Shown here: piece after piece, positions 17,812-62,640 of the stretch
Layout of the letters: each line of letters opens with the position of its first letter
Position numbering within the stretch: position 1 is the first letter of the stretch
From: Molanna angustata
Lineage: Eukaryota > Arthropoda > Insecta > Trichoptera > Molannidae
Assembly (NCBI GenBank): GCA_963576475.1
Contig: OY754972.1
Coordinates: 14,925,572 to 14,989,571 of the forward strand
Direction of reading: 5' to 3'
Length of the DNA stretch: 64,000 nt
Program-made: the position numbers and the translations under genes
Notes under the pieces: generated by a model
Told to the model about the DNA's origin: nothing
What the model saw: the letters and a program-made list of their open reading frames with translations, nothing else
Database searches by the model: none

Positions 17812-18415
17812 ATATTTTTACTCTCCACACTATGGGATAGTGGAAAGTCATGATTTCACAATTTTCAAGCATTTTTTACATCAATTTCTCAACGGGTATC
17901 ATGTAGAGAGTGCACACTGTGTGTTTCGTCGTGATTTGTTTGTATGTATGGCGTATATGGCGTACGGCGTTCGGCGTACGGAATTATCCTTTTTGTGTCG
18001 TCTCTACAGCCCAAACTATAAGTCCGATCGACTTCATATGAACATCATAATATATGTAAAGTGCATACATAGACCTAGAGCTGATGAGTTTTTCATAGAT
18101 ATCCGTTAATGTCTTCTCTATGATTTCATCTGTCCAAATTTTCAAAATGCTCTCACGGTCTGGAAAATCGAGCTGTTTGTATACTGCTTAAAATTTCGAT
18201 ACAACAAAAATACACTCATCAAAAATGCATTCAAGGATTGTCAAAATTAAAAAAAAAATCTATGGTTTCCCATATCAATGTGAAATAAATTTCATATTTG
18301 TAGAGAAAATTTATATAACAAGTAAAATAGCTTCTGTAAGGGAAAATTTAGTGATCAACTTCATATTGATGTGGATGTGTCTCTATAGACAAGTGTATTT
18401 TTTATTCTCCACTTC
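17812..18415 (+). repeat. Family S repeat, long subfamily, unexpanded, 3' part missing
   Basis: Starts with TTTTTACTCTCCACACTATGG and shares with 52645-53200 the phrases CATGATTTC.CAA, GGGTATCATGTAGAGAGTGC, the GTACGG/GGCGT-rich short run and CAGCCCAAACTATAAGTCCG. From about 18140 (ATGCTCTCACGGTCTGG) it holds one diverged copy of the sequence that forms the 313 bp satellite monomer. It is cut off by an RTE fragment at 18416. Confidence 0.8.
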
Positions 18416-30916: not shown

Positions 30917-31103
30917 AAAGTAATAAATAAAAAATACAACACCCACCCAACAACAGGTTGCCACATCCTGCAGACTTATGGTTTTTACCGTCTCAGGAAT
31001 TCAGGCTGAAAACACAATTGAAAACTTTGTCTCCATCGGGAATTGAATTCGGGAACTTGAGCTCAGCAGTCAGTTATCTTCCTAACTGAGCCTCATAGGT
31101 CGA
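30917..31103 (-). repeat. tRNA-derived SINE, copy 1
   Basis: On the minus strand it starts GTCGACCTATGAGGCTCAGTT (decayed A box) and has TCAATTCCCGATGGAGACA at the B box. It shares the body GTGTTTTCAG...TGAGACGGTAAAAACCATAAG with the other SINEs of this family. Confidence 0.78.
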
Positions 31104-31104
31104 C

Positions 31105-31240
31105 AATTATTTCATATATTACACAAAAAAAGAAAAAAACACACAAGAGATGCACATAAATAAACAAGTCAAGATCTCAAAAGGACAATGCGCAATACTC
31201 AGCTATCTTGTGGGAGGACAAACTTCCAGTAGCTGATTTT
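31105..31240 (-). repeat. LINE 3' UTR fragment with hairpin
   Basis: The reverse complement (ATCAGCTACTGGAAGTTTGTCC...GATAGCTGAGTATTG...GTCCTTTTGAG) matches the 3' UTR at 50851-50910. The TCAGCTA/TAGCTGA stem spans 31199-31236, exactly 38 bases, as at 50854-50891. Confidence 0.65.
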
Positions 31241-31684
31241 TTAAAATTATTTTTATTTCTAAAAATAATGAATATGTCCTTGTAACAATTATATGTAAAT
31301 ACATCTTCATACATTCCCTAAATTAAGCATTAATTCTATAGGTGAACTAAATCGGTCGTGGCAGAATTCGAACTCGTAGCCGCTATATTACTTGAGTTCG
31401 CTGTAGAAAATGTCAAGCCGAGTATGAGGACTGTCATTTTCATCAAGGAGCACAACTCTTCAACCCTCGTGATGTCAGAGCATGAAAATCTGCCAAACAT
31501 ATTGGGCAAGGTGATATCTTCTAATGTCCACTTACGTTCATGATTTTTTTTAGGATTCATAATAAAATATCAGGTTTATCTGTTAAAAATGGCATCAGTC
31601 GATCCATTGAATACAGAAATGAGTCGAGAACGCAGCGAATGAAATGATTAGCCAAGATTGCAATTCCATTGATTCGTGCTATCA

Positions 31685-31859
31685 GGGGGGCAAGTCTGGT
31701 CCGATCGGCGAAATCAAAACCCTAGTGATTACCCATATCATGGATATAATTTTCATATGGAGTTCTATGACATCTAAAGATATTAAAGAACTCCATACAA
31801 TAATTATATCCATGATCACGAGGGTTTTGATTTCGCCGATTTAACCAGACTTGCCCCCC
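31685..31859. mobile_element. Palindromic MITE (GGGGGGCAAGTCTGG family)
   Basis: The two halves are inverted copies: GGGGGGCAAGTCTGG...CGGCGAAATCAAAACCCT at the left and its complement AGGGTTTTGATTTCGCCG...CCAGACTTGCCCCCC at the right, and pairing continues to about 31770. At 175 bp it can fold into one long hairpin. Copies: 40647-40821 (segmental duplicate), 52176-52361 and a half copy at 52408-52483. Confidence 0.88.
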
Positions 31860-32584
31860 AGGATTGTTTCGATATAAAAAAGAATTAGTTTGAAATTTGC
31901 GCTGACTGTAAATAATTGTATCTATCTTTTATACTAATTTGTAGTATCTACATCAACATGTAGGTATACTGTATACTACCATACCATTATCATCACGGCT
32001 TAATTTCACAATGTGGTGTAATCAACGGCAGGTGTCTAGGTGTGCATCACATTATAAAAGGAAGCACGTCATATTTATGTATCCCCACATCAGCTTTGTC
32101 ACTCCTTAAAAGGCACTACATTCATAATGGTTGAACTATGTGAGATCCGTGGTTTACCTCATTGGTGAACTAAGTGAGATGCTAATTTGCCTATAATATA
32201 TTTGATTACTCGGCTCATACGAGACACCCGATGAGGCAGAATGTGTACACACAGTAAATATATACTATATATAGGTTACTAATGTATTATTTTAAATCAT
32301 GCGAATAGTATAATATATAATTTTAGGAAACCCCCTGTATATCGTTTCACGCCAGTATCAATATTCATTTTATATTGAAATTAATAGATAGGTCGGTGAC
32401 GGAGCGATAAGTGAGATAGACTAACAATTCATTTGATTCGGATTTGAATTCAGCCTCTTCAGATTTATTTTACTTTTATCTTCTTCCTCTTCTTTTCTTG
32501 CATTTCACGCTTCTGTCACCTACCCTCCTTAATTGTTTCAACGACATATTCATATTAAAAAAATAACTTTGCTTCCGTTAACGA

Positions 32585-32728
32585 TGAGGTTACAGTACAT
32601 CTTTTTAGGAGGGATGAGACTGATGTATATCGTGCTTCCGTGCCTTTACAAGGCAATGCACACCCGCAAACCTGTCGCTGGCTATCATAAATAATGGAAT
32701 ATGCCGTGATGGTATTTATTTATTTAAT
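32585..32728 (+). repeat. Retroposon 3' end, CCGTGATGGT(ATTT)n type
   Basis: GGGATGAGACTGATG, CAAGGCAATGCACACCCGCAAACC and ATATGCCGTGATGGTATTTATTTATTT. The same order is found at 34085-34245. The 3' motif CCGTGATGGTAT is shared with the (TATG)n-tailed RTE family. Non-coding. Confidence 0.6.
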
Positions 32729-32732
32729 ATTG

Positions 32733-32919
32733 ATTCTCGGGCAACTAATAGCTACTATGTCAAATATTAATTTAACATGCATCCAATAACAAGTTACCAC
32801 ATTCTGAAGACTTACGGTATTAATCGTCTCACAGATCCAGACTGAAAACACAATTGAAAACTGTGTCTCCACCGGGAATCAGCAGTCAGATATCGAACCA
32901 ACTGAGCCACCGACAGTGG
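32733..32919 (-). repeat. tRNA-derived SINE, copy 2 (B box deleted)
   Basis: Body and A-box end (GTGGCTCAGTTGGTT on the minus strand) match copy 3 at 35551-35744. About 20 bases covering the B box are missing between CCACCGGGAATC and AGCAGTCAGA. Confidence 0.8.
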
Positions 32920-34084
32920 TATGAATGAATGCCGTGATGTTATGAGTAATAGTAATTGTCGCTTTAATAAACATTATATAACCGAACACAGCATTTTCCA
33001 TAACGTTCCACTATAGGTTCCGACCTTCATATCCACAGTGAAATATTTGGATAGTTAGGTTAGGTTATATGTATATAGGCTTGTCGGGATAAATGAAAGA
33101 CTACAATATATGTAGGAACAACATCAATATGACGAGGCGATAGGCTGGTCACGACCATGATGATGAGATAATAAAATAATATAGAAATTTCATTAATGAG
33201 GTTAGTTTAAAACATTTCAGAATTTATAGAAAAAAATACTACTAAAATTTTAACTTTTTACGTTTTATTTTCAACCAATGTTAAAAAATAAATTTTCTTT
33301 CGAGTAAACACATACGCACAAAACGAATTCCAAGTGAATGTACGTAAAGATATGTATTATAGACATCCATGATTTATTCAAGGATTGAACCAGAATTGTA
33401 ATCCCATATAAATCTATTCAATATTCAAACAATAGGCCGATAAATTACCCTTCAAACTCAGAAGCGATATTGCAATTATGGAATCATGTAGGCGTTATGT
33501 TTCATCCACTCAAAATGGTTTTGATATTGTTAGAACATTATTAATATATTTTTTTTCGCTTTGCTTTTCCACTCCGAATGATATTAACAATGAATTCATT
33601 TAAATGATAATAACCACCGTTGAGAGATTAAAAATAAATTTATCTCAATGTTTGTATTTCTATACATTTAGCAAGACGAGAAGATGTAATTAGAATTGGA
33701 TTTTTTATTACTCTCGTAATAATCTTCACTCGTTTGACTGGAGGCAGACTTATCTTGTAATTGAATTTTATTATATTTTGTTATAATAAATTGCGATGTA
33801 ATCAAAATACAACGAAAGAATAGAACCTACGTAGAATTTCATAGATAAAACTTTGGTAGGTATATGTTTTAGTTTCACAACAAGTCGAAGTCTGGTTGGA
33901 AACCTTTTGGATATAATATTTATATAATATTTTTTTATAATATTTAGATATTGAGGCACCGGCTTAGAATAGTGCTTCCATTCTTTTAAATCATTATGTT
34001 TTCGAGTGTCCCGTAAAAGCCGGGTAATCGAAAATACAACAGGCAACAATAACATCTCACATAGTTCAGCAATGAGGTTCACCA

Positions 34085-34640: not shown

Positions 34641-35384
34641 AAAATATATGAAAATATAAGAAAATATACTATTCATCAATTGTGACGATCAATAATTGAT
34701 CATTGATATTTAATTTTTTTTTCACAGAACATCCTTGAATCATGCCTGCCATGTATGTACATTGTACATTCCCATTTTTTAAAAGAGATCAAACATTTTT
34801 TTATTAAAAAAATGTTAAAATATTTCTTTTGACACGGGTAACCATTTTCTCTTTAAAACCATACCGACTTAACCATAAGATATTATTATTAAAACAAACA
34901 GTGGAACTCTTCTACATTTTCTCGCAATATAATCGAGAAAACCAATTATTAATATGGGACTTCCATATTCAATGATGTACTTTTATTGCGGAGTACCTAC
35001 TTTATTTAAACGATGTAGGTATTATGTACCTACATCATACAAAATTACACAAGGGGTGGTATAAATAATGTTCAAAATGATTAATAGATTTTAACGAACA
35101 TATGTACGTTAAAATATTTTACAACAGGTTACATACCAACGTCATTAAAATATATTTTAATATATACATATCAAAATATTAATTTAAATTTAGAGAGGTA
35201 TTAATTAATAATCAGCGTACCATTAATAGGTACCTACCTGCTTTTCATTAATTTATTCTTATTTTTAAACGATGTTTTTTTTATATGATATGATATCTAT
35301 ATTTAATTATTTGATAAATATGAACAGGAATAATATTTGCAAAGACTTTTTACGAAATTAAATGTTGGTTTGTCATGGAAAAAC

Positions 35385-35550
35385 TAAAATTGTGTAAGTA
35401 TTTTATTAAAATGTATTTAGTAATTATTGTTAGTATTACCTCAGAACAGACATTGCCTAGTGAGGTAAGAATTCCATTATAATATTTATTTTTTTGTTAC
35501 ATTGAATTTATTGTACCCTATTATGGAAAAAAATAAATAAAAAAAATATA
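35385..35550 (+). repeat. LINE 3' UTR with hairpin and A-rich tail
   Basis: Contains TTACCTCA (35436-35443) pairing with TGAGGTAA (35461-35468) around a loop ending GCCTAG, then TTTATTGTACCCTATTATGG and an AAATAAATAAAAAAAATATA tail. Layout as in the LINE at 1400-2740. No coding part is recognised upstream. Second copy at 42526-42691. Confidence 0.65.
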
Positions 35551-35744
35551 TAACTGGAGCAACTTAGAGGTACTATGTCAAATATTAATTTCACACTCAC
35601 CCAAAACAAGTTGACACATTCTGGAGACTTACGACATTAATCGTCTCACAGATCCAGACTGAAAACACAATTAAAAACTGTGTCTCCACCGGGAATCGAA
35701 CCCGGGACCTTTAGTTACCTAACCAACTAAGCCACGAAGGCCGA
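35551..35744 (-). repeat. tRNA-derived SINE, copy 3 (best preserved)
   Basis: The minus strand starts TCGGCCTTCGTGGCTTAGTT, giving an A box TGGCTTAGTTGG and a B box GGTTCGATTCC about 30 bases later, both close to consensus. A 120 bp body follows (GGTGGAGACACAGTTTTTAA..., ending at AAATTAATATTTGACATAG). At about 190 bp this is the reference member for the six or so SINE copies here. Confidence 0.88.
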
Positions 35745-36331
35745 CTGTTGTAAGTTTTGTTTGTATTGTTGTTAGTTTTGATTATTTTGTTTATAAAACA
35801 TTATATTATATTTGTCAAGACTAGGAATAAAACCACTGAGTATTGGGTTGTAGAAACGTAATAAAATCAACGTATTATTTTGTACGCCTTTTTGTAAAGT
35901 CAAATTTATTTTATTGTGACAAGTGTTACTGATAGAATTTCCCCCGTATTGTGACTTTGACATTTGGCGAAATCATTTTTCTTCAAAAAAATATATACCT
36001 TTGGGTACAGTCAACGTTTTCTGCGACGTTTTATAAAGATGATGAAAGAAATGAAAACATACGCAAAAATTGGATTGTACAGAAGTATTTTTCCTCTGTT
36101 GCTTCGTTCAGGACATGGTTTGATTATGTGTACGTACAATGTACATAAAATTATATTTCAAAGAGGTTTTCATTTTGATCAGACATGAATATGAAAAACT
36201 TCCCTATGTGATTTCAACACGAAATTACTTTTTTTTTATTATTTCCACACGCTATAGAAATAAACGACTAATACTTAGTTCCTGTATATCCTGCCTCAGA
36301 ATATTCCATTTATTTTATTTATTTTATGTAG

Positions 36332-36534
36332 CTTATCGGGCAACTAACAGGTGCCATGTCAAATAATTATGTAACACGCACCCAATAACAAGTTGCCACA
36401 TTCTGGAGACTTACGATATTAATCGTCTCACAGATTCAGACTGAAAACAATTAAAAACTGTGTCTCCGCCGGAAAGGGAACTCGGCACTTTTGGCTTAGG
36501 AGTCAGATATACAACCAACTGAGCCACAAAGACC
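36332..36534 (-). repeat. tRNA-derived SINE, copy 4
   Basis: The A-box end GTGGCTCAGTTGGTTGTATA and body match copy 3. The B box is damaged (AGTTCCCTTTCCGGCGG). It extends left to CCCGATAAGC on the minus strand, giving the full 3' end of the family. Confidence 0.85.
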
Positions 36535-38365
36535 AATATTGAATATTAAAGAAAGCCATTGTTTCGGTTATCAGTTATCATTAAATAATCACTTTTTTCA
36601 TGTTTTCTAAAATAATAATATCCTTGCATATTATAGTATTTTAGACCTGGAGTAGGTTAGCGTTTGATAGGGTTCCACGTGAACTGATATGCGATGCACT
36701 TATAATGCAAAATGTTTCTGAATACTATATAAAACTTGAATACAATATAAACCTTCTTAAAGACAACGATTAAAAATAATAGGGGATTTCATATAGCGCC
36801 GTACTTAATGCTTAATACACTATAATGAATTATTTTGCCATATATGTAGGTATGTAAAACCTTTGAAAACATTTTATATTTTAACATAATGACAAACAAA
36901 CTAATAACTTTTAGTAGTGAGACCTGAATTATTGGCATTTGCAATAAATCCGATTTTATTCGCGACACTTTAAAACATTAAAAAAACAACTTGGCTACAA
37001 TGGCGATTCTTAATTTTGAATCTTATTAAAAAAATATGAAATAAATTAATTAACTTATAGAAAATGCCGTTTAAAACGTGTTTTTTTCAATTATTTATCA
37101 TTTATAGTGAAAAAGAACCTGCAAATGTTAATTTTTTCATAATTTTTTATATTTTTTTTACAGAAAATAAAATTGTTTTCTTCAAAGTGTCACCCTTTTA
37201 GTGAAAAATAACACCGCTTTTCATAAAAATAACTACTTTTCGCTTTTACATAAAATAACGCGAATAATATCATCCCTTTTATACGAAAATTGCACCCCTT
37301 TTTGAAAAAAAACTAATGCGAATTTTTAAAGTCTCTACTTATAAGTTGTTATTGATTAGCTTCAGGATTCACTGTTATACATTTTTAAGCCACGAAAATC
37401 AATCAATCGTACAGCTTCATGAAATTTTCATTTCATCAGCGAGTAAAGATGGTGTTTATATTAAAGGTATTAATGATTCAATAATTTTATAGCGTTAGAT
37501 GGAATTGTTATTAAAATATCCTGCGCTCTTTGTGGGCGGATCTCTAAGAATCTTTGGATGGAAAATATTATCTTAGTGGTGTATTTGAAAGTAGGTAACC
37601 ACAAATACGTTGGTAGATAAAATACCAAATTGTATCGGAAAATGTTTACGAAAAACATGTTTATAATATTGCTTTCTCTTTGGTTTTATCTAACAAAAGC
37701 GTTAATAAATATTGTGAAGCAACAACACATGGACCAGAACGAAATTCGATTTACAAAATTTATTTGCAAAATTGTAAGAATGGAAACACCATCTGGTGGT
37801 AAGATATTATTTTGTTCACATTTAGGTATACAGAGATAGAAAGGAATGAATATATTTACATTGCTAATGATACAGAAACTCAAAACACGCTTGAACCAAT
37901 AAATAATTATACAGAGTTTCAATAATTTATCTGAACATGAATTTATTTAGCGTTATTAGGGAATGAGAGCACTAGAAATCCATATACCTACGTATAAATT
38001 GTCTATGTTTGAGAAATGACTTTAGCGTTAAATAAACACACTTATACTATTAGTAGAAATATGTAAATAGTACATAGGTACCCCTTGTCCCAAATGGGAA
38101 AAACAGAGAGAATCACATGCCACAGTTTTCTATCTTGGTACCAATCCACCGACTCATTTGCATCATCGGATTTACTCTCAACACTCAATTTCAATCTCAA
38201 TATTGAATTGAAGCTACGATCCTTACTTTGTAATGAAGCATAATGTGGTAGATGGGTATGTTATAGTCTTAATATTAATTATAATGTACGCCTATTATGT
38301 AGAATCAGGCACCGGGTAGGTAGGTTGGTTGTATGCGTAGATTTTGAATGGAATTATAACCTTAT

Positions 38366-38886
38366 TTCGAGAGAAGGGCCCCATGTCCGTCTATTGTTCA
38401 TGCTTCCTTATATCAGGATATCTTTCACTTGGTCGAGCCATCCCTTTTTAAGATGATCTTGGTCTCTTGTTCCATTACTAATCGTGTTTTAGTATTGGAT
38501 ACATATCACTAATTATTTTACTATTATCATAAATTAATTATTTTCGTAATAATAAATTTATGATAATATTTACATAAAAAGTTTGAACAATCGACGAGCA
38601 TGTATGAGACGATGCATGGATGTAAAGGAAGCCAGAAATGTGTGCAAAAATAGAGAAGTATGGCGCTCGATTCTCTCTGTCCCGTACCCCGTAAGGGACA
38701 TGGCGTGATGGTATGTATGTATGTATTATTTTCGTGCGGCCATACCATATCAACGGGTTTGCTTTCATTCTATTAATTGACGAAGTTCAGTTCTTTATCT
38801 TAAATATTTTTCTCAGCGATCTAATTTCAGCTGCATTTAGGTGTTAAGTGTTTTCTGTCATTTCCAATACCCATGTCTTAATACTT
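38366..38886 (-). pseudogene. RTE fragment, duplicate of 29405-29925
   Basis: Same nested arrangement; one substitution (GTATAGG to GTAAAGG near 38624) lies in the inserted plus-strand RTE end. Confidence 0.72.
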
Positions 38887-39877
38887 AAAACTAATTCAAT
38901 TCGGTATTTTTTTGTACTCGATATACCTACATGTACAATATTGTACCGTATAATCACGGGGTTTACGGAGAGTTATTAAAACGATTGATTTTGCGAGTTT
39001 TACAACATTCTGTTATTGTAGCTTTGTATTGATTAGTTTATACCTACCCTTATCTTGATGTATTATATAACACATATACATATCGATTTTAAACATTAAT
39101 ATTTATCTGAAGTAAACGTGTTAGTTGTACGTTGGTACATGATTTTAGTCGGTACATTGATTTTACTATTATGAATAGTTTGTGCGATACAAAGTCAAAT
39201 CGATCACGTATCAATTTAAACTTCGACGGAAAGCGTTTAATTAACGAAAGTGTAGGTATTTCTCTAACACCGTTATCATAAATACCTATTCCCTCTATAT
39301 ATACAGGATGTCCAAAAAAAATGCACACGTTCATATACATTTTTTTAAATAGAAAGATCAGGACAGAGAACCCAATGCTGAAAAGGCACGGAGAGAAGAA
39401 AAAGATAATATAGGTTTGTTATTTTAATTTTGTATTGATTTTCGAATAGGTATCTAACAGGTACTATGTCAAGTATTAATTTTACTATGGTACTTTGTCA
39501 AATATTTATTTTTAATGTTCACCTACATAGTTGGACTCCAATGAGACAATATAAAAATAATACCGAATTTTAAAGTGATAAAAAGAATATGCAACAATTA
39601 ATGACAATTTCATACTAAACGTTGATATTAATATTTTTTTATGATTAAATGTGGATAAAGGTTAAGATGAGATAATGATCGAGGATATATTTTTTTAGGA
39701 ATAAGCCAAGGTTAGAACGTATTTAGAACGTATCATGAGTAGCCGCCCTGTTCATAGTATAATGAAGTATACTCTTGGAGCATTTTGTCGGTGGCAGCAT
39801 AATATTCCAACATTCCCATGTTGTAATATAAATTGCACTATTGCATTATTGTTATTCTGTACTGTTTATGTAAAGTA

Positions 39878-40064
39878 AAAGTAATAAATAAAAAATACAA
39901 CACCCACCCAACAACAGGTTGCCACATCCTGCAGACTTATGGTTTTTACCGTCTCAGGAATTCAGGCTGAAAACACAATTGAAAACTTTGTCTCCATCGG
40001 GAATTGAATTCGGGAACTTGAGCTCAGCAGTCAGTTATCTTCCTAACTGAGCCTCATAGGTCGA
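39878..40064 (-). repeat. SINE, duplicate of copy 1
   Basis: Same sequence as 30917-31103 inside the segmental duplication. Confidence 0.78.
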
Positions 40065-40066
40065 CA

Positions 40067-40202
40067 ATTATTTCATATATTACACAAAAAAAGAAAAAAA
40101 ACACACAAGAGATGCACATAAATAAACAAGTCAAGATCTCAAAAAGACAATGCGCAATACTCAGCTATCTTGCGGGAGGACAAACTTCCAGTAGCTGATT
40201 TT
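40067..40202 (-). repeat. LINE 3' UTR fragment, duplicate
   Basis: Copy of 31105-31240 with small changes (CAAAAGGAC to CAAAAAGAC, CTTGTGGG to CTTGCGGG); the second lies in the hairpin loop. Confidence 0.65.
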
Positions 40203-40646
40203 TTAAAATTATTTTTATTTCTAAAAATAATGAATATGTCCTTGTAACAATTATATGTAAATACATCTTCATACATTCCCTAAATTAAGCATTAATTCTA
40301 TAGGTGAACTAAATCGGTCGTGGCAGAATTCGAACTCGTAGCCGCTATATTACTTGAGTTCGCTGTAGAAAATGTCAAGCCGAGTATGAGGACTGTCATT
40401 TTCATCAAGGAGCACAACTCTTCAACCCTCGTGATGTCAGAGCATGAAAATCTGCCAAACATATTGGGCAAGGTGATATCTTCTAATGTCCACTTACGTT
40501 CATGATTTTTTTTAGGATTCATAATAAAATATCAGGTTTATCTGTTAAAAATGGCATCAGTCGATCCATTGAATACAGAAATGAGTCGAGAACGCAGCGA
40601 ATGAAATGATTAGCCAAGATTGCAATTCCATTGATTCGTGCTATCA

Positions 40647-40821
40647 GGGGGGCAAGTTTGGTCCGATCGGCGAAATCAAAACCCTAGTGATTACCCATAT
40701 CATGGATATAATTTTCATATGGAGTTCTATGACATCTAAAGATATTAAAGAACTCCATACAATAATTATATCCATGATCACGAGGGTTTTGATTTCGCCG
40801 ATTTAACCAGACTTGCCCCCC
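40647..40821. mobile_element. Palindromic MITE, duplicate of 31685-31859
   Basis: Identical by eye except AAGTCTGG to AAGTTTGG in the left arm, which introduces one mismatch into the terminal pairing. Confidence 0.88.
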
Positions 40822-41546
40822 AGGATTGTTTCGATATAAAAAAGAATTAGTTTGAAATTTGCGCTGACTGTAAATAATTGTATCTATCTTTTATACTAAT
40901 TTGTAGTATCTACATCAACATGTAGGTATACTGTATACTACCATACCATTATCATCACGGCTTAATTTCACAATGTGGTGTAATCAACGGCAGGTGTCTA
41001 GGTGTGCATCACATTATAAAAGGAAGCACGTCATATTTATGTATCCCCACATCAGCTTTGTCACTCCTTAAAAGGCACTACATTCATAATGGTTGAACTA
41101 TGTGAGATCCGTGGTTTACCTCATTGGTGAACTAAGTGAGATGCTAATTTGCCTCTAATATATTTGATTACTCGGCTCATACGAGACACCCGATGAGGCA
41201 GAATGTGTACACACAGTAAATATATACTATATATAGGTTACTAATGTATTATTTTAAATCATGCGAATAGTATAATATATAATTTTAGGAAACCCCCTGT
41301 ATATCGTTTCACGCCAGTATCAATATTCATTTTATATTGAAATTAATAGATAGGTCGGTGACGGAGCGATAAGTGAGATAGACTAACAATTCATTTGATT
41401 CGGATTTGAATTCAGCCTCTTCAGATTTATTTTACTTTTATCTTCTTCCTCTTCTTTTCTTGCATTTCACGCTTCTGTCACCTACCCTCCTTAATTGTTT
41501 CAACGACATATTCATATTAAAAAAATAACTTTGCTTCCGTTAACGA

Positions 41547-41690
41547 TGAGGTTACAGTACATCTTTTTAGGAGGGATGAGACTGATGCATATCGTGCTTC
41601 CGTGCCTTTACAAGGCAATGCACACCCGCAAACCTGTCGCTGGTTATCATAAATAATGGAATATGCCGTGATGGTATTTATTTATTTAAT
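41547..41690 (+). repeat. Retroposon 3' end, duplicate of 32585-32728
   Basis: Same sequence with GATGTATATC to GATGCATATC and CTGGCTATC to CTGGTTATC. Confidence 0.6.
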
Positions 41691-41694
41691 ATTG

Positions 41695-41881
41695 ATTCTC
41701 GGGCAACTAATAGCTACTATGTCAAATATTAATTTAACATGCATCCAATAACAAGTTACCACATTCTGAAGACTTACGGTATTAATCGTCTCACAGATCC
41801 AGACTGAAAACACAATTGAAAACTGTGTCTCCACCGGGAATCAGCAGTCAGATATCGAACCAACTGAGCCACCGACAGTGG
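41695..41881 (-). repeat. SINE, duplicate of copy 2
   Basis: Carries the same B-box deletion as 32733-32919. Confidence 0.8.
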
Positions 41882-42525
41882 TATGAATGAATGCCGTGAT
41901 GTTATGAGTAATAGTAATTGTCGCTTTAATAAACATTATATAACCGAACACAGCATTTTCCATAACGTTCCACTATAGGTTCCGACCTTCATATCCACAG
42001 TGAAATATTTGGATAGTTAGGTTAGGTTATATGTATATAGGCTTGTCGGGATAAATGAAAGACTACAATATATGTAGGAACAACATCAATATGACGAGGC
42101 GATAGGCTGGTCACGACCATGATGATGAGATAATAAAATAATATAGAAATTTCATTTATGAGGTTAGTTTAAAACATTTCAGAATTTATAGAAAAAAATA
42201 CTACTAAAATTTTAACTTTTTACGTTTTATTTTCAACCAATGTTAAAAAATAAATTTTCTTTCGAGTAAACACATACGCACAAAACGAATTCCAAGTGAA
42301 TGTACGTAAAGATATGTATTATAGACATCCATGATTTATTCAAGGATTGAACCAGAATTGTAATCCCATATAAATCTATTCAATATTCAAACAATAGGCC
42401 GATAAATTACCCTTCAAACTCAGAAGCGATATTGCAATTATGGAATCATGTAGGCGTTATGTTTCATCCACTCAAAATGGTTTTGATATTGTTAGAAATT
42501 AAATGTTGGTTTGTCATGGAAAAAC

Positions 42526-42691
42526 TAAAATTGTGTAAGTATTTTATTAAAATGTATTTAGTAATTATTGTTAGTATTACCTCAGAACAGACATTGCCTA
42601 GTGAGGTAAGAATTCCATTATAATATTTATTTTTTTGTTACATTGAATTTATTGTACCCTATTATGGAAAAAAATAAATAAAAAAAATATA
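42526..42691 (+). repeat. LINE 3' UTR with hairpin, duplicate
   Basis: Copy of 35385-35550, lying 28 bp to the right of the microhomology join; hairpin at 42577-42609. Confidence 0.65.
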
Positions 42692-42885
42692 TAACTGGAG
42701 CAACTTAGAGGTACTATGTCAAATATTAATTTCACACTCACCCAAAACAAGTTGACACATTCTGGAGACTTACGACATTAATCGTCTCACAGATCCAGAC
42801 TGAAAACACAATTAAAAACTGTGTCTCCACCGGGAATCGAACCCGGGACCTTTAGTTACCTAACCAACTAAGCCACGAAGGCCGA
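42692..42885 (-). repeat. SINE, duplicate of copy 3
   Basis: Appears identical to 35551-35744, with both Pol III boxes kept. Confidence 0.88.
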
Positions 42886-43472
42886 CTGTTGTAAGTTTTG
42901 TTTGTATTGTTGTTAGTTTTGATTATTTTGTTTATAAAACATTATATTATATTTGTCAAGACTAGGAATAAAACCACTGAGTATTGGGTTGTAGAAACGT
43001 AATAAAATCAACGTATTATTTTGTACGCCTTTTTGTAAAGTCAAATTTATTTTATTGTGACAAGTGTTACTGATAGAATTTCCCCCGTATTGTGACTTTG
43101 ACATTTGGCGAAATCATTTTTCTTCAAAAAAATATATACCTTTGGGTACAGTCAACGTTTTCTGCGACGTTTTATAAAGATGATGAAAGAAATGAAAACA
43201 TACGCAAAAATTGGATTGTACAGAAGTATTTTTCCTCTGTTGCTTCGTTCAGGACATGGTTTGATTATGTGTACGTACAATGTACATAAAATTATATTTC
43301 AAAGAGGTTTTCATTTTGATCAGACATGAATATGAAAAACTTCCCTATGTGATTTCAACACGAAATTACTTTTTTTTTATTATTTCCACACGCTATAGAA
43401 ATAAACGACTAATACTTAGTTCCTGTATATCCTGCCTCAGAATATTCCATTTATTTTATTTATTTTATGTAG

Positions 43473-43675
43473 CTTATCGGGCAACTAACAGGTGCCATGT
43501 CAAATAATTATGTAACACGCACCCAATAACAAGTTGCCACATTCTGGAGACTTACGATATTAATCGTCTCACAGATTCAGACTGAAAACAATTAAAAACT
43601 GTGTCTCCGCCGGAAAGGGAACTCGGCACTTTTGGCTTAGGAGTCAGATATACAACCAACTGAGCCACAAAGACC
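43473..43675 (-). repeat. SINE, duplicate of copy 4
   Basis: Appears identical to 36332-36534. Confidence 0.85.
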
Positions 43676-43954
43676 AATATTGAATATTAAAGAAAGCCAT
43701 TGTTTCGGTTATCAGTTATCATTAAATAATCACTTTTTTCATGTTTTCTAAAATAATAATATCCTTGCATATTATAGTATTTTAGACCTGGAGTAGGTTA
43801 GCGTTTGATAGGGTTCCACGTGAACTGATATGCGATGCACTTATAATGCAAAATGTTTCTGAATACTATATAAAACTTGAATACAATATAAACCTTCTTA
43901 AAGACAACGATTAAAAATAATAGGGGATTTCATATAGCGCCGTTTATTGATTCA

Positions 43955-51136: not shown

Positions 51137-51755
51137 TATAGTATATAAATACATACATACATACATACATACCATCACGCCATGTCCCTTACGGGGTAAG
51201 CAGAGAGAACCGAGCGCCATACTTCTCTATTTTTGCACACATTTCTGGCTTCCTTTGCATCCATGCATCGTCTCATACATGCTCGTCGATTGTTCAAACT
51301 TTTTATGTTTCCTTCTTTCAAAATATCATTCACATGGTCATGCCATCCCTTTCTGGGGCGACCTCTGCTATTCACTCCATCTCTAGCACCCATGTATATT
51401 TTTTTGGTCAGTCGTTCATCGTTCATTCTTTCTATATGTCCAAACCACCTTAAAGCATTCACTTTCATTTTACATATAATATCCTTCTTTAACTTGCATT
51501 CTCTCCTTATGTCCTCATTTTTTATTCTATCATATATCGTTCTATTACATACTCTTCTTAGTGATCTCATTTCTACAGCATTTATTCTACTTTCATGTGT
51601 TCTTTGCCAGGTCCATGTTTCACTTGCATACGTCAAAGTAGGCACCACAATTGCATTGTGTATTGCAATTTTGGCTTCCTTTGAGATGCTTGGGTCGGAC
51701 ATTACTCGTCTAAGTGCTCCGTTTATTCTATTCCCTGCCATATAGTATATAAATA
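51137..51755. repeat. Target-site duplication pair around a truncated RTE
   Basis: TATAGTATATAAATA occurs exactly at 51137-51151 and 51741-51755, directly abutting the two ends of the RTE insertion. Length and position fit target-primed reverse transcription. Confidence 0.93.
51152..51740 (-). mobile_element. 5'-truncated RTE insertion, (TATG)n-tailed family
   Basis: 589 bp with a 188-codon open frame on the minus strand (51175-51741). It reads RINGALRRVMSDPSISKEAKIAIHNAIVVPTLTYASETWTW, INAVEMRSLRRVCNRTIYDRI, KMKVNALRWFGHIERMNDERLTKKIY and SRGRPRKGWHDHVNDILKEGN. It ends in REVWRSVLSAYPVRDMA, with the stop next to GGGACATGGCGTGATGG and a (TATG)n tail. Only the post-RT C-terminus is present; the first Met partly uses target-site bases, so this is not a functional gene. 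The frame is intact and the target-site duplications are perfect, making it one of the youngest insertions here. Confidence 0.92.
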
Positions 51756-52483: not shown

Positions 52484-52793
52484 AAGTTAATCGGGAAAGG
52501 ACGGAGAGCATTCTTTATAACGAATATTTGCCACACATAATGATGTAAAGAACTCAGGGATTGTACGGCGTTGGCGGACTAACGTGTTTTCTTTTGTATA
52601 AACTGTCTTTCAGTTTGATTTTTGTTTTAATTTGTAATGCACTTTTTACTCTCCACACTATGGAATAGGGGAGAGTCATGATTTCGCAAAATTTAAGCGT
52701 ATTTTTTTTACATCAATTTCTCAATGGGTATCATGTAGAGAATGCACACTATGAGTTTCGTCGTGATGTGTTTGTGTGTATGGCGTATACGCT

Positions 52794-52821
52794 GTACGCC
52801 GTACGCCGTACGCCGTACGCC
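52794..52821. repeat. Heptamer repeat (GTACGCC)4
   Basis: Four exact copies. The matching place in 17812-18415 has irregular GTACGG/GCGTTCGG units, so this run is variable between family members. Confidence 0.92.
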
Positions 52822-53143
52822 GTAGCATTTATCTTTTTTGTGTCCTCTCTACAGCCCAAACTATAAGTCTGATCGACTTCATATTAACATCATATGTGTA
52901 AAGTGCAAAGACCTAGAGCTGATTAGTTTTCCATAGACAACTTTTGATTTCTTCTCTATGAATTCATCATTTACGTTGTTTTTTTTTTGTGTCCTCTCTG
53001 CAGCCCAAACTATAAGTCCGATTGACTTCATATTGATATCACATGTGTTAAGTCCATAAACTTAGAGCTGATTAGTTTTCCATAGACAACGGTTCATTTT
53101 TTCCCAATGTTTCTTTATGATTTCATCTATTAAAACTGAAAAA

Positions 53144-56100
53144 ATGCTCTCACGACCTGGAAATTAGAGATATTTTAATTTGGTTTCAACTATTTATACA
53201 ACACCAAGAATCTTCATAAAATTGTATTCAAAGTTGGTCAATGTTAAAAGAAAAATATTCAACGGTTTCAAAAATTATATTTTATTTAATGGATATTTGT
53301 ATGAAACTTATATGTAACAAGAGAATTTTTTTATATTTGGCAATGATCAGTTCATTGATTTCATATTGATAGAAGAATATTAATAGCTTGAACTTAGAAC
53401 TGATTAGCTTTTCATAGATATCATATAATTTCTTCATATGATATCACGTGTCAAAATTTTGAAAATGCTCTCGCGTTCTTTAAAACAAAATTTATCTGCT
53501 TTTTTTAAAATATTTCATACAACATAAGCATTCTTCACTATACTGCATTAATAGTTTGTTTATCATAACATAAAAATATACTATCGGAAGAAAATTTATA
53601 TTCCTGGTAGTAACATTTAGTATGAATAAAAATGTAATTAGATAAATTTCTATGTATGGAAACGTGTAGTAATTTGATTTCATGATATAATGTAAAGAGC
53701 TTGAACATAGAACTGATTAGCTTTCCATAAATAACAAAAAAATTCTTCATATGATATCACCTGTCAAAATTTGAAAAATGCTCTCGCGTTCTTTAAAACA
53801 AAATTTATCTGCTTTTTTTAAAATATTTCATACAACATAAGCATTCTTCACTATACTGCATTAATAGTTTGTTTATCTTAACATAAAAATATACTATCTG
53901 AAGAAAATTTATATTCCTGATAGTAACATTTAGTATGAATAATAATGTAATTAGATAAATTTCTATGTATGGAAAAGTTCAGTAATTTGATTTCATGTTA
54001 AAATGTAAAGAGCTTGAACATAGAACTGATTAGCTTTCCATAAATAACAAAAAAAATCTTCATATAATATCACGTGTCAAAATTTTGAAAATGCTCTCGC
54101 GTTCTTTAAAACAAAATTTATCTGCTTTTTTTAAAATATTTCATACAACATAAGCATTCTTCACTATACTGCATTAATATTTTGTTTATCTTAACATAAA
54201 AATATACTATCGGAAGAAAATTTATATTCCTGGTAGTAACATTTAGTATGAATAAAAATGTAATTAGATAAATTTCTTTGTATGGAAAAGTTCAGTAATT
54301 TGATTTCATGTTATAATGTAAAGAGCTTGAACATAGAACTGATTTGCTTTCCATAAATAACAAAAAAAATCTTCATATGATATCACCTGTCAAAATTTGG
54401 AAAATGCTCTCGCGTTCTTTAGAACAAAATTTATCTGCTTTTTTTAAAATATTTCATACAACATAAGCATTCTTCACTATACTGTATTAATAGTTTGTCT
54501 ATCTTAACATAAAAATATACTATCGGAAGAAAATTTATATTCCTGATAGTAACATTTAGTATGAATAATAATGTAATTAGATAAATTTCTATGTATGGAA
54601 AAGTTCAGTAATTTGATTTCATGTTATAATGTAAAGAGCTTGAACATAGAACTGATTAGCTTTCCATAAATAACAAAAAAAATCTTCATATAATATCACG
54701 TGTCAAAATTTTGAAAATGCTCTCGCGTTCTTTAAAACAAAATTTATCTGCTTTTTTTAAAATATTTCATACAACATAAGCATTCTTCACTATACTGCAT
54801 TAATATTTTGTTTATCTTAACATAAAAATATACTATCGGAAGAAAATTTATATTCCTGGTAGTAACATTTAGTATGAATAAAAATGTAATTAGATAAATT
54901 TCTATGTATGGAAAAGTTCAGTAATTTGATTTCATGTTATAATGTAAAGAGCTTGAACATAGAACTGATTAGCTTTCCATAAATAACAAAAAAAATCTTC
55001 ATATAATATCACGTGTCAAAATTTTGAAAATGCTCTCGCGTTCTATAAAACAAAATTTATCTGCTTTTTTTAAAATATTTCATACAACATAAGCATTCTT
55101 CACTATACTGCATTAATATTTTGTTTATCTTAACATAAAAATATACTATCGGAAGAAAATTTATATTCCTGGTAGTAACATTTAGTATGAATAAAAATGT
55201 AATTAGATAAATTTCTATGTATGGAAAAGTTCAGTAATTTGATTTCATGTTATAATGTAAAGAGCTTGAACATAGAACTGATTAGCTTTCCATAAATAAC
55301 AAAAAAAATCTTCATATAATATCACGTGTCAAAATTTTGAAAATGCTCTCGCGTTCTTTAAAACAAAATTTATCTGCTTTTTTTAAAATATTTCATACAA
55401 CATAAGCATTCTTCACTATACTGCATTAATATTTTGTTTATCTTAACATAAAAATATACTATCGGAAGAAAATTTATATTCCTGGTAGTAACATTTAGTA
55501 TGAATAAAAATGTAATTAGATAAATTTCTATGTATGGAAAAGTTCAGTAATTTGATTTCATGTTATAATGTAAAGAGCTTGAACATAGAACTGATTAGCT
55601 TTCCATAAATAACAAAAAAAATCTTCATATGATATCACCTGTCAAAATTTGGAAAATGCTCTCGCGTTCTTTAGAACAAAATTTATCTGCTTTTTTTAAA
55701 ATATTTCATACAACATAAGCATTCTTCACTATACTGCATTAATAGTTTGTTTATCTTAACATAAAAATATACTATCTGAAGAAAATTTATATTCCTGATA
55801 GTAACATTTAGTATGAATAATAATGTAATTAGATAAATTTCTATGTATGGAAAAGTTCAGTAATTTGATTTCATGTTATAATGTAAAGAGCTTGAACATA
55901 GAACTGATTAGCTTTCCATAAATAACAAAAAAAATCTTCATATAATATCACGTGTCAAAATTTTGAAAATGCTCTCGCGTTCTTTAAAACAAAATTTATC
56001 TGCTTTTTTTAAAATATTTCATACAACATAAGCATTCTTCACTATACTGCATTAATATTTTGTTTATCTTAACATAAAAATATACTATCGGAAGAAAATT

Positions 56101-59100
56101 TATATTCCTGGTAGTAACATTTAGTATGAATAAAAATGTAATTAGATAAATTTCTTTGTATGGAAAAGTTCAGTAATTTGATTTCATGTTATAATGTAAA
56201 GAGCTTGAACATAGAACTGATTAGCTTTCCATAAATAACAAAAAAAATCTTCATATGATATCACCTGTCAAAATTTGGAAAATGCTCTCGCGTTCTTTAG
56301 AACAAAATTTATCTGCTTTTTTTAAAATATTTCATACAACATAAGCATTCTACACCATACTGCATTAAAAGTTTGTCTATCTTATCATAAAAATATACTA
56401 TCGGAAGAAAATTTATATTCCTGATAGTAACATTTAGTATAAATAATAATGTAATTAGATAAATTTCTATATATGGAAAAGTTCAGTAATTTGATTTCAT
56501 GTTATAATGTAAAGAGCTTGAACATAGAACTGATTAGTTTTCCATAAATAACAAAAAAAATCTTCATATAATATCACGTGTCAAAATTTTGAAAATGCTC
56601 TCGCGTTCTTTAAAACAAAATTTATCTGCTTTTTTTAAAATATTTCATACAACATAAGCATTCTTCACTATACTGCATTAATATTTTGTTTATCTTAACA
56701 TAAAAATATACTATCGGAAGAAAATTTATATTCCTGGTAGTAACATTTAGTATGAATAAAAATGTAATTAGATAAATTTCTATGTATGGAAAAGTTCAGT
56801 AATTTGATTTCATGTTATAATGTAAAGAGCTTGAACATAGAACTGATTAGCTTTCCATAAATAACAAAAAAAATCTTCATATGATATCACCTGTCAAAAT
56901 TTGGAAAATGCTCTCGCGTTCTTTAGAACAAAATTTATCTGCTTTTTTTAAAATATTTCATACAACATAAGCATTCTTCACTATACTGCATTAATAGTTT
57001 GTTTATCTTAACATAAAAATATACTATCTGAAGAAAATTTATATTCCTGATAGTAACATTTAGTATGAATAATAATGTAATTAGATAAATTTCTATGTAT
57101 GGAAAAGTTCAGTAATTTGATTTCATGTTATAATGTAAAGAGCTTGAACATAGAACTGATTAGCTTTCCATAAATAACAAAAAAAATCTTCATATAATAT
57201 CACGTGTCAAAATTTTGAAAATGCTCTCGCGTTCTTTAAAACAAAATTTATCTGCTTTTTTTAAAATATTTCATACAACATAAGCATTCTTCACTATACT
57301 GCATTAATATTTTGTTTATCTTAACATAAAAATATACTATCGGAAGAAAATTTATATTCCTGGTAGTAACATTTAGTATGAATAAAAATGTAATTAGATA
57401 AATTTCTTTGTATGGAAAAGTTCAGTAATTTGATTTCATGTTATAATGTAAAGAGCTTGAACATAGAACTGATTAGCTTTCCATAAATAACAAAAAAAAT
57501 CTTCATATGATATCACCTGTCAAAATTTGGAAAATGCTCTCGCGTTCTTTAGAACAAAATTTATCTGCTTTTTTTAAAATATTTCATACAACATAAGCAT
57601 TCTACACCATACTGCATTAAAAGTTTGTCTATCTTATCATAAAAATATACTATCGGAAGAAAATTTATATTCCTGATAGTAACATTTAGTATAAATAATA
57701 ATGTAATTAGATAAATTTCTATATATGGAAAAGTTCAGTAATTTGATTTCATGTTATAATGTAAAGAGCTTGAACATAGAACTGATTAGTTTTCCATAAA
57801 TAACAAAAAAAATCTTCATATAATATCACGTGTCAAAATTTTGAAAATGCTCTCGCGTTCTTTAAAACAAAATTTATCTGCTTTTTTTAAAATATTTCAT
57901 ACAACATAAGCATTCTTCACTATACTGCATTAATAGTTTGTTTATCATAACATAAAAATATACTATCGGAAGAAAATTTATATTCCTGATAGTAACATTT
58001 AGTATGAATAAAAATGTAATTAGATAAATTTCTATGTATGGAAACGTGTAGTAATTTGATTTCATGATATAATGTAAAGAGCTTGAACATAGAACTGATT
58101 AGCTTTCCATAAATTACAAAAAAATTCTTCATATGATATCACCTGTCAAAATTTGAAAAATGCTCTCGCGTTCTTTAAAACAAAATTTATCTGCTTTTTT
58201 TAAAATATTTCATACAACATAAGCATTCTTCACTATACTGCATTAATAGTTTGTCTATCTTAACATAAAAATATATTATCGGAAGAAAATTTATATTCCT
58301 GATAGTAACATTTAGTATGAATAATAATGTAATTAGATAAATTTCTATGTATGGAAAAGTTCAGTAATTTGATTTCATGTTAAAATGTAAAGAGCTTGAA
58401 CATAGAACTGATTAGCTTTCCATAAATAACAAAAAAAATCTTCATATAATATCACGTGTCAAAATTTTGAAAATGCTCTCGCGTTCTTTAAAACAAAATT
58501 TATCTGCTTTTTTTAAAATATTTCATACAACATAAGCATTCTTCACTATACTGCATTAATAGTTTGTTTATCTTAACATAAAAATATACTATCGGAAGAA
58601 AATTTATATTCCTGATAGTAACATTTAGTATGAATAAAAATGTAATTAGATAAATTTCTATGTATGGAAACGTGTAGTAATTTGATTTCATGATATAATG
58701 TAAAGAGCTTGAACATAGAACTGATTTGCTTTCCATAAATAACAAAAAAATTCTTCATATGATATCACCTGTCAAAATTTGAAAAATGCTCTCGCGTTCT
58801 TTAAAACAAAATTTATCTGCTTTTTTTAAAATATTTCATACAACATAAGCATTCTTCACTATACTGTATTAATAGTTTGTCTATCTTAACATAAAAATAT
58901 ACTATCGGAAGAAAATTTATATTCCTGATAGTAACATTTAGTATGAATAATAATGTAATTAGATAAATTTCTATGTATGGAAAAGTTCAGTAATTTGATT
59001 TCATGTTATAATGTAAAGAGCTTGAACATAGAACTGATTAGCTTTCCATAAATAACAAAAAAAATCTTCATATAATATCACGTGTCAAAATTTTGAAAAT

Positions 59101-61460
59101 GCTCTCGCGTTCTTTAAAACAAAATTTATCTGCTTTTTTTAAAATATTTCATACAACATAAGCATTCTTCACTATACTGCATTAATATTTTGTTTATCTT
59201 AACATAAAAATATACTATCGGAAGAAAATTTATATTCCTGGTAGTAACATTTAGTATGAATAAAAATGTAATTAGATAAATTTCTATGTATGGAAAAGTT
59301 CAGTAATTTGATTTCATGTTATAATGTAAAGAGCTTGAACATAGAACTGATTAGCTTTCCATAAATAACAAAAAAAATCTTCATATAATATCACGTGTCA
59401 AAATTTTGAAAATGCTCTCGCGTTCTTTAAAACAAAATTTATCTGCTTTTTTTAAAATATTTCATACAACATAAGCATTCTTCACTATACTGCATTAATA
59501 TTTTGTTTATCTTAACATAAAAATATACTATCGGAAGAAAATTTATATTCCTGGTAGTAACATTTAGTATGAATAAAAATGTAATTAGATAAATTTCTAT
59601 GTATGGAAAAGTTCAGTAATTTGATTTCATGTTATAATGTAAAGAGCTTGAACATAGAACTGATTAGCTTTCCATAAATAACAAAAAAAATCTTCATATG
59701 ATATCACCTGTCAAAATTTGGAAAATGCTCTCGCGTTCTTTAGAACAAAATTTATCTGCTTTTTTTAAAATATTTCATACAACATAAGCATTCTACACCA
59801 TACTGCATTAAAAGTTTGTCTATCTTAACATAAAAATATACTATCGGAAGAAAATTTATATTCCTGGTAGTAACATTTAGTATGAATAAAAATGTAATTA
59901 GATAAATTTCTATGTATGGAAACGTGTAGTAATTTGATTTCATGATATAATGTAAAGAGCTTGAACATAGAACTGATTAGCTTTCCATAAATAACAAAAA
60001 AATTCTTCATATGATATCACCTGTCAAAATTTGAAAAATGCTCTCGCGTTCTTTAAAACAAAATTTATCTGCTTTTTTTAAAATATTTCATACAACATAA
60101 GCATTCTTCACTATACTGCATTAATAGTTTGTCTATCTTAACATAAAAATATACTATCGGAAGAAAATTTATATTCCTGATAGTAACATTTAGTATGAAT
60201 AATAATGTAATTAGATAAATTTCTATGTATGGAAAAGTTCAGTAATTTGGTTTTAATGTTATAATGTAAAGAGCTTGAACATAGAACTGATTAGCTTTCC
60301 ATAAATAACAAAAAAAATCTTCATATAATATCACGTGTCAAAATTTTGAAAATGCTCTCGCGTTCTTTAAAACAAAATTTATCGGCTTTTTTTAAAATAT
60401 TTCATACAACATAAGCATTCTTCACTATACTGCATTAATAGTTTGTTTATCTTAACATAAAAATATACTATCGGAAGAAAATTTATATTCCTGATAGTAA
60501 CATTTAGTATGAATAAAAATGTAATTAGATAAATTTCTATGTATGGAAACGTGTAGTAATTTGATTTCATGATATAATGTAAAGAGCTTGAACATAGAAC
60601 TGATTAGCTTTCCCTAAATAAAAAAAAAATTCTTCATATGATATCACCTGTCAAAATTTGAAAAATGCTCTCGCGTTCTTTAAAACAAAATTTATCTGCT
60701 TTTATTAAAATATTTCATACAACATAAGCATTCTTCACTATACTGCATTAATAGTTTGTCTATCTTAACATAAAAATATACTATCGGAAGAAAATTTATA
60801 TTCCTGGTAGTAACATTTAGTATGAATAAAAATGTAATTAGATAAATTTCTATGTATGGAAAAGTTCAGTAATTTGATTTCATGTTATAATGTTAAGAGC
60901 TTGAACATAGAACTGATTAGCTTTCCATAAATAACAAAAAATTTCTTCATATGATATCACCTGTCAAAATTTGGAAAATGCTTTCGCGTCCTTTAAAACA
61001 AAATTTATCTGCTTTTATTAAAATATTTCATACAACATAAGCATTCTACACCATACTGCAATAATAGTTTGTCTATCTTAACATAAAAATATACTGTCGA
61101 TAGAAATTTATTTTCCTGGTAGTAAAATTTAGTATGAATAAAAATGTATATAATAAGATAAATTTCTTATGTATGGAAAAGTTCAGTAATTTGATTTCAT
61201 GTTATAATGTAAAGAGCTTGAACATCGAACTGATTAGCTTTTCATAAATAACAAAAATTTCTTCATATGATATTACGTGTCAAAATTGTCAAAATGCTCT
61301 AACGTCCTTTAAAACAAAATTTATCTGCTTTTATTAAAATATTTCATACAACATTAGAATTCTTCACCATACTGCATTAATAGTTTGTCTATCTTAACAT
61401 GAAAATATACTATCGTTAGAAAATTTATATTCTTGGTAGTAAAATTTAGAATGAATAAAA
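53144..61460 (+). repeat. Satellite array, about 26 monomers of 313 bp
   Basis: Using ATGCTCTC as anchor, monomers begin at 53144, 53465, 53778, 54091, 54404, 54717 and onward every 313 bases to 60038, then 60352, 60665, 60978 and 61294. Twenty-three of the intervals between 53465 and 61294 are exactly 313, one is 314 and one 316; the first (53144-53465) is 321. Inner monomers differ by a few per cent or less, while the first one and the last two are clearly diverged. Two main types differ at ATATCACCTG with ATTTGGAAAA or ATTTGAAAAA (A) versus ATATCACGTG with ATTTTGAAAA (B). Frames of 60-80 codons inside are by-products. Confidence 0.97.
55600..57890 (+). repeat. Four-monomer higher-order repeat (1,252 bp) within the satellite
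   Basis: Monomers at 55656, 55969 and 56282 share private variants with those at 56908, 57221 and 57534: ACTATCTGAAG (first), TTTCTTTGTATGG (second), and TTCTACACCATACTGCATTAA plus CTTATCAT (third). The offset is 1,252 = 4 x 313 in each case. Confidence 0.88.
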
Positions 61461-61527
61461 TATTTCATTGTCAATATTTGTGGTGTGGAGAGTTTAGTGT
61501 TGGCCACAACCCACTCGTTTATGTAAG

Positions 61528-61745: not shown

Positions 61746-62640
61746 ACAAAAATGAGCATAGTGAAGTAATTTTTTTAACTGTCTTGCTAAATAAATAAAC
61801 ACAAGAGAAACCAAACCTAAGCGAATAATTTGTTCGAGTTTATCGTAAAATCCTGTGTTGTTAGCACTAGAAAAGCGATCACGCAATTGAAGTTTGTTTT
61901 ATATAGGTAGGCCTTTCCAAGTTTTATGGCTTGTTCATTTGTGTTGTTAAAACGTCAAATTTACTACCGACCAACGATTTTACCCACGTAACACTAACTT
62001 AACCACATTGTGAAATTTCTTTTGTGACGATTTTTAACGCACTTTTTTTACAATTATTGTGTGAAAATTGCTGTTTCGATAGTATGTCAAATAAAAAATG
62101 TTATCTTGATTGAATTATGGAAATATTTTTTCAAACCATATCGGTCAGTTTTTGTTTATTTTTTATGGTACCTAAATGTTAAAAAAAAAATTTTCATTTG
62201 ATATCTAATCAACGATATGAGATTTGTTCTATTATGTTCATTTTCATTCACATAATACAAGTCTCATATTTTGTGATTATTGCTACTAAAAATAAATAAT
62301 ATTAATCAGTTTCCAATCTGTCTATTTAGACGGCTTCTAATATATAGAATTCCGTAATAATTATGAATAAGAATATGAACATATTGTTCCACAAAGTACC
62401 TACTTAATCCGAAACGGTCATCAGTAGACGAAATCAATACTTTATGGAATATATATTCATATTTATTCTAAGTTAAAATAATCAGAATTACCTATACCTA
62501 CAAAGTTATTGTAAGTATACATTTTTATATATTTAAATATTGTAAAAAAAAGTATATAAGTCAAATGTTATTAATATTATTATGTAGTTTATATAAATAA
62601 TGGTATAAGTACATTTTTTGTTAAATCACTATACAATTTA
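61746..62640. other. AT-rich DNA without recognisable genes
   Basis: Nothing supported on either strand. Confidence 0.4.

Follow-up and report, generated by a model that had tools for sequence, protein, structure and literature searches.

The window analysed here is a 64,000-nucleotide stretch of the genome of Molanna angustata (Trichoptera), positions 14925572-14989571 of contig C8 (OY754972.1). The genome comprises 995 Mb in 131 contigs, and the window contains zero N. Towards the right of the window lies a transposable element with a long satellite array inside it. Tandem Repeats Finder reports a period of 313 base pairs (bp) at 53385-61460, with 25.8 copies and 96% matches; the phase adopted for analysis is 53387-61460 (8,074 bp). 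The array is enclosed by both ends of one element, 52648-61517. Its left end, ACTCTCCACACTATGG, follows directly after TTTTT, and its right end, ...CCCACTCG, is followed by TTT. The element family that holds the array is called S, and L-numbers denote the genome loci that were fetched. An initial annotation had placed about 26 monomers of 313 bp between the termini of a single element, which agrees with this layout. The termini it gave, 52645 and 61527, correspond to real ends but lie a few bases off, and its array start, 53144, falls within the diverged unit that precedes the array. No open reading frame (ORF) of at least 150 amino acids (aa) is listed inside the element. The parts of the element are collected in Table 1.

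Table 1. Parts of the S element and its relatives, in window coordinates.
Feature	Position	Strand	Remark
T run, left boundary (target and/or element)	52643..52647	+	TTTTT in 16 of 18 printed left ends, TTATT in 2
Palindromic 5' end	52648..52676	+	DNA fold z -2.66
Left 11-bp subterminal inverted repeat, ACTCTCCACAC	within 52648..52676	+	inverse of 61483-61493
(TACGCCG)n microsatellite	52788..52824	+	Tandem Repeats Finder
Direct copy 1 of 2, 149 bp apart	52834..52960	+	86.6% to 52983-53109
Direct copy 2 of 2	52983..53109	+	86.6% to 52834-52960
Single diverged monomer-like unit ahead of the array	53059..53371	+	68% to monomer; score 160, shuffle maximum 68
Array, 25.8 x 313 bp	53387..61460	+	final monomer cut at position 245
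Short tail, array to right inverted repeat	61461..61482	+	identical in 21 of 21 printed copies
Right 11-bp subterminal inverted repeat, GTGTGGAGAGT	61483..61493	+	inverse of left repeat
3' end, small palindrome GTTG-GCCA-CAAC at 61499-61510, last letters CTCG	61494..61517	+	fold z -0.26, not significant
TTT, right boundary	61518..61520	+	21 of 21 right ends
Unexpanded relative	17820..18396	+	81% to 52629-52968; right part uncertain, further left-like end near 18399
Single monomer-like unit of the relative	18073..18372	+	72.7% of aligned letters, 44 gap columns of 319
Right ends of relatives	16294, 18752, 47023	+	
Right ends of relatives	19092, 17229, 13510	-	

The array is a property of the whole S family. 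Exact-pattern and tag counts were made over the entire genome, and the reversed control of each pattern gives 0 matches. The 35-base left end has 2,917 exact matches, a count that takes in compound elements and perhaps copies of a sister family. The exact junction between satellite and right end that is specific to S occurs at 1,765 places, which rules out a unique amplification in place; the growth inside a single element described in the initial annotation is not supported. The 37-base right end has 2,637 exact matches. This number overstates S because a sister family has the same right end: at 1,027 places a base pattern other than that of S precedes the shared end (for example C1:230985 and C1:6181268), and GCTTACTATG precedes it in 27 of the 34 sister places for which letters were shown. 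When the lists for the first 31.3 Mb of contig C1 were compared by hand, 18 of the 76 right ends also appeared among the sister-family places.

A 42-base tag from the monomer, allowing up to 2 mismatches, has 29,704 matches. In the loci analysed, 245 tags correspond to 348 monomers, from which we estimate about 42,000 monomers in all, or about 13 Mb and 1.3% of the genome. The surroundings of the tags were followed for the 100 listed on C1 up to 8.7 Mb. These form 17 clusters. For 16 of them (95 tags) an exact element end stands no more than 4 kb away, on both sides for 64 tags and on one side for 31. The seventeenth cluster, with 5 tags at 172717-174281, sits immediately upstream of a left end at 175334 that bears the fusion junction J1, described below, and is for this reason assigned to a compound locus. 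Thus none of the 100 tags lies outside element copies, and arrays sitting mostly outside family S, which the initial annotation had named as evidence against its view, receive no support. A classical satellite, with arrays mainly outside transposable elements, is ruled out over this stretch, and a free satellite merely touching an element is ruled out by the tag counts together with the same sample.

The monomer is homologous over nearly its full length to a single unit ahead of the array in its own element and to a unit in the unexpanded relative. The relative, whose left end is at 17820, was said to carry one diverged monomer-like segment, and it does. Aligned with the monomer, as the initial annotation had suggested, its unit (18073-18372) scores 146 against a maximum of 64 in 300 dinucleotide shuffles, and the pre-array unit scores 160 against 68. 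A control stretch, 62200-62600, scores 55, equal to the null mean of 55 and hence background. A small tree places the two single units together and the monomers in a separate group; the single units are 64-66% and 60-62% identical to the monomers and 67% identical to each other.

These comparisons favour a monomer that is intrinsic to the element, as a putative paralogue of its own interior. Since monomers and single units have diverged about as far as the element and its relative have, the first duplication appears to be old, and the large amplification would be a step later than this seed duplication. The proposal that an internal segment of the repeat gave rise to the satellite is accordingly supported in kind and not in timing, and to say that the origin can be read directly is too strong, as the single units group apart from the monomers. 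The relative is a cousin, possibly without a right end of its own, rather than a direct ancestor. A motif around AGAGCTGATTAG, which recurs ahead of the array when the sequence is read by eye, is a possible candidate for the seed.

Alternatively, a pre-existing satellite may have been captured from elsewhere by the "filler" route, with the element merely dispersing it. Capture by Helitrons is described in the available part of PMC7492417, and an identity of just 60-66% between monomers and single units would suit such an origin. We regard it as unlikely, given near-full-length homology to a unit at the same place in both element and relative, and given that no listed tag stood outside element copies in the sample of 100.

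The array is probably the central repeat of a non-autonomous Helentron (HINE), for which copying as a unit by a rolling-circle mechanism is predicted. The HINE features used for comparison are those in the available part of PMC4067079. S has subterminal inverted repeats of at least 11 bp (ACTCTCCACAC and GTGTGGAGAGT) with a palindromic 5' end, and it combines a microsatellite and central tandem repeats with a lack of coding capacity. The inverted repeats, the palindromic 5' end and insertion at T runs together bring it into agreement with HINEs. A canonical Helitron, which in the same source begins with 5' TC, ends with 3' CTRR and inserts between A and T, was tried and rejected: the S ends are ACTC... 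and ...CTCG, beside T runs.

Insertion sites were compared in 20 fetched copies, the best matches to the right end, plus the window copy. All 21 right ends carry TTT, beyond which the following bases vary. The T run has 2 (2 cases), 5 (13) or 6 (4) letters at 19 left-end matches and from 3 to 7 letters at 22 right-end matches. Empty sites were sought by joining the flanks of 17 copies and comparing them with the window and the loci. At least four of these copies have a partner that spans the junction, and three of the sites are readable. For L017 the paralogues have 8 T where the filled site has 5+3; for L014 the window sequence has 7 T; for the window copy L024 has 5 T. No target duplication beyond T was seen in these three sites.

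The 11-bp inverted ends would also suit a DNA transposon with terminal inverted repeats, or a foldback element, that moves by cut and paste. Such a mechanism is very unlikely, as nothing beyond the T runs is duplicated at the readable empty sites, the two ends are asymmetric, and the compound elements described below retain several left ends with one right end.

Several observations weigh against the assignment to HINEs. The 20 fetched copies were picked by their match to the right end and are therefore biased to intact, young ones. The empty-site counts of 8, 7 and 5 T, against 5+3 in a filled site, leave the number of T belonging to the element unsettled. The distance between the right inverted repeat and the 3' end is 24 bp, compared with 38-60 bp in the mite HINEs covered by the available part of PMC4067079, and the fold of the 3' palindrome does not reach significance (z -0.26). 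Finally, no autonomous Helentron with these ends, marked by ACTCTCCACAC and GTGTGGAGAGTTTAGTGTTGGCCAC, was found among the Rep loci read. The Rep profile PF14214 has 141 genome matches. The 20 loci read carry GLPH, the Helitron signature in Rep according to PMC4067079, and none has the S ends within about 3.5 kb; an autonomous Helentron would be expected to have GSPH in Rep together with a helicase and an endonuclease. Nine further matches are confined to model positions 82-190 or 84-190, in ORFs of up to 2,436 aa, and are candidate Helentrons. Long-ORF candidates stand, for example, at C9:34098929, C18:29967694 and C15:2420787, and 2.5 kb read beside one candidate holds none of these element ends. 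A 23-mer of the right end has 0 matches in IMG/VR viral contigs.

Among the Rep matches is a GLPH Helitron family with 43 equal-scoring hits to PF14214 (loci among L033-L048), several of them in open ORFs of 1,546 aa. This family looks young and is possibly still active.

Array length differs greatly from copy to copy. On C1, 0-31.3 Mb, each S right end was paired with an exact left end at most 30 kb away, provided that both were on one strand with no other S right end in between; the S-specific right junction was used so as to separate S from its sister family. Pairs were found for 50 of 53 right ends, using 70 of the 99 left ends listed. Measured to the nearest left end, lengths equal 1.2 to 67 monomers (median 11.1, mean 13.7), and 42 of the 50 have remainders confined to one fifth of the 313-bp phase (p 4e-22). 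Two or more left ends are present in nine of the 50 paired copies, where chance would give about 0.04 extra left ends per right end.

The copies themselves are young. Among 18 left segments, taken from the end to the first monomer, the mean difference is 0.19% and the maximum 0.81% over 742 ungapped columns; the length of this segment is 743-806 bp, depending on the copy. Monomers were compared after hits below 200 bp or 85% identity had been dropped, which left 348 monomers in 21 copies, including the readable part of L022, a locus that contains 5,000 N. Three monomer types (110, 91 and 64 members at a 1% cut) fill most interiors. The edges are more regular: the first monomer is of type F in 16 of the 19 copies with a visible array start (the first monomer of the window copy falls outside the F cluster), and the last is of type E in 18 of 21, with D before E in 15 of these.

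Order was compared between the 13 of 21 copies in which both ends were seen and one left end is present, and 45 pairs remained once those with fewer than 4 interior monomers had been dropped. The median difference between these intact copies is 0.3% for the first monomer, 0.4% for the last and 3.5% for interior ones. The longest interior run common to two copies has a mean of 1.33 monomers, against 1.04 when shuffled (one mismatch), or 2.64 against 1.75 at the 1% cut; shared prefixes and suffixes exceed chance yet are short. Because edge monomers are close and interior ones divergent, the outermost monomers have been inherited, with the interior reordered since the burst. Interior monomers were likely gained, lost and reordered during or after transposition. 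Two results speak against this account. Eight of the 50 lengths lie off phase; these, like the 67-monomer value, may hold other insertions. In addition, second-last monomers diverge from copy to copy almost as much as interior ones do (medians 3.2% and 3.5%), which is explained by D occupying that position in only 9 of the 13 copies.

Some copies are compound elements in which several 5' ends share a single 3' end. Junction J1 joins a truncated monomer, through a filler of about 26 bases, to a new left end, and is identical in L013 (C1) and L022 (C15). The J1 left ends of these two loci are also the exceptions in which TTATT precedes ACTC. J1 has 567 exact matches in the genome. A 28-mer of its filler has 606 matches in all, so the filler rarely occurs without this left end. 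The first 100 J1 sit at 61 loci, of which 18 carry from 2 to 10. At C1:11228206 a series of ten exact left ends shares one exact right end (11259375), and the J1 spacings are 3171, 3170, 1919, 3177, 3170, 3177, 1919, 3177 and 3177. At C3:11045184-11073828 spacings of 14320 and 14324 define a tandem unit of about 14.3 kb, and elsewhere (C3:8825957) spacings are irregular. Overall, 28 of 39 spacings fall within one fifth of the monomer phase.

J1 looks like a single fusion event. The same J1 stands at many separate places: compounds transpose. A second junction, J2, places a left end inside a T run of the single unit and has 17 matches on 13 contigs. In L012 (4503-5100) the S single unit and array are immediately preceded by a diverged HINE left end and a piece of a right end. 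This looks like a third kind of compound, as if an unrelated 5' end had been joined to the 3' part of S.

A sequence of steps may be proposed for this system. An internal unit of the element would have been duplicated long ago, and the duplicate would later have expanded, through slippage or unequal exchange, into a small set of monomer types, before a recent burst spread the element through the genome. Where an element came to lie downstream of another that lacked a right end, transposition from the outer left end to the first right end would yield a compound. Founding dimers would arise by such self-insertion, and the longer J1 series by rolling-circle multimers or unequal exchange. Homologous arrays flanking J1 could then let left end, array and junction multiply in tandem, forming a second satellite level. 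Tentatively, S can be viewed as a two-level satellite factory. It would first turn its own interior into a 313-bp satellite that is reshuffled at about each new copy, and then, through the chance J1 fusion, combine left end and array into a larger tandem unit, about 2 to 14 kb long, which increases in number and spreads through the genome by rolling-circle copying that starts at the outermost 5' end and terminates at the sole 3' end.

Alternatively, changes in length and the J1 series may be due entirely to unequal exchange or replication slippage acting on the site once the element has inserted, with no part played by rolling-circle copying. This is a serious possibility, though we stop short of calling it probable. 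Several copies show peaks of near-identity at certain lags (for example 4 or 7), and the periods 3170, 1919 and 3177 differ by whole monomers, 4 x 313. On the other hand, flanks 0.19% apart with interiors largely reordered would need very fast turnover, and the dispersal of J1 shows that compounds do move. Another explanation, that array length and order are unreliable products of assembly, is highly improbable. Misassembly is frequent in tandem arrays; here, however, lengths vary from 1.2 to about 36 monomers across one chromosome, monomers within one array are several percent apart and irregular in order, and 995 Mb in 131 contigs suggests long reads.

Parts of the two-level system have known counterparts. 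In the oyster Crassostrea gigas, monomers of Cg_HINE measure 138-181 bp, with a mean of 3.6 and a maximum of 29.3 per array (PMC7492417, in the parts covered). Like S, these are dispersed non-autonomous Helentrons with subterminal inverted repeats, a microsatellite and a central satellite-like array; they insert at T-rich sites without target duplication, as S also appears to do. The monomers of S are longer (313 bp), and its arrays hold a median of 11. Whereas the parts covered leave the origin of the oyster repeat open, S keeps a homologous single unit, and multi-5'-end compounds are not seen in those parts. DINE-1 and the mite HINEs resemble S in that their subterminal inverted repeats are palindromic and some copies carry tandem repeats, and they insert in T runs with no target duplication, as S also appears to do; autonomous partners are known there, in the available part of PMC4067079, whereas none was found here.

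Tandem Helitrons that combine multiple 5' ends with a single 3' end have been reported in plants (Xiong et al. 2016, as cited in the accessible part of the review PMC12628747). They resemble S compounds in their several left ends, one right end and periodic units, but are canonical Helitrons of plants, whereas S is an animal HINE whose units each hold a satellite array and one fixed fusion junction. The several 5' termini of composite FoHelis in Fusarium oxysporum are explained by a proposed self-insertion, after which transposition starts at the outer 5' end and stops at the first 3' end (PMC5148889, in the portion available). The duplicated 5' parts are typically shorter than 200 bp in FoHelis, compared with about 0.7 to 14 kb, including the array, in S. 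Satellite-bearing HINEs and multi-5'-end Helitrons (the latter in plants and fungi) were thus already known, and what is new here is the compound elements. A literature search of titles and abstracts, with most subscription papers and bioRxiv preprints outside its coverage, gave no account of this satellite and no HINE with satellite-carrying multi-5'-end compounds.

The S family bears on more general questions. Whether Helentrons capture their satellites or make them is left open by the oyster work, in the parts covered, and in S a homologous unit survives. With well over a thousand young copies that differ in monomer number, the rate of array change can be measured against point mutation. 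J1, with its 567 matches, is a natural mark by which the model of multiple 5' ends with a single 3' end can be tested in an animal.

Other features of the window include two direct duplications: 27844-33540 and 36801-42501 (5.7 kb, 99.6%), and 35354-36802 and 42495-43943 (1.45 kb, 100%). An open long interspersed nuclear element (LINE) ORF of 1015 aa at 7807-10854 (-) has endonuclease and reverse transcriptase domains. Among its named relatives, psyllid proteins match it most closely, at 58% identity; of the best 120 listed, those with a named organism come from psyllids and aphids. A LINE fragment at 51175-51741 has its named relatives in Lepidoptera.

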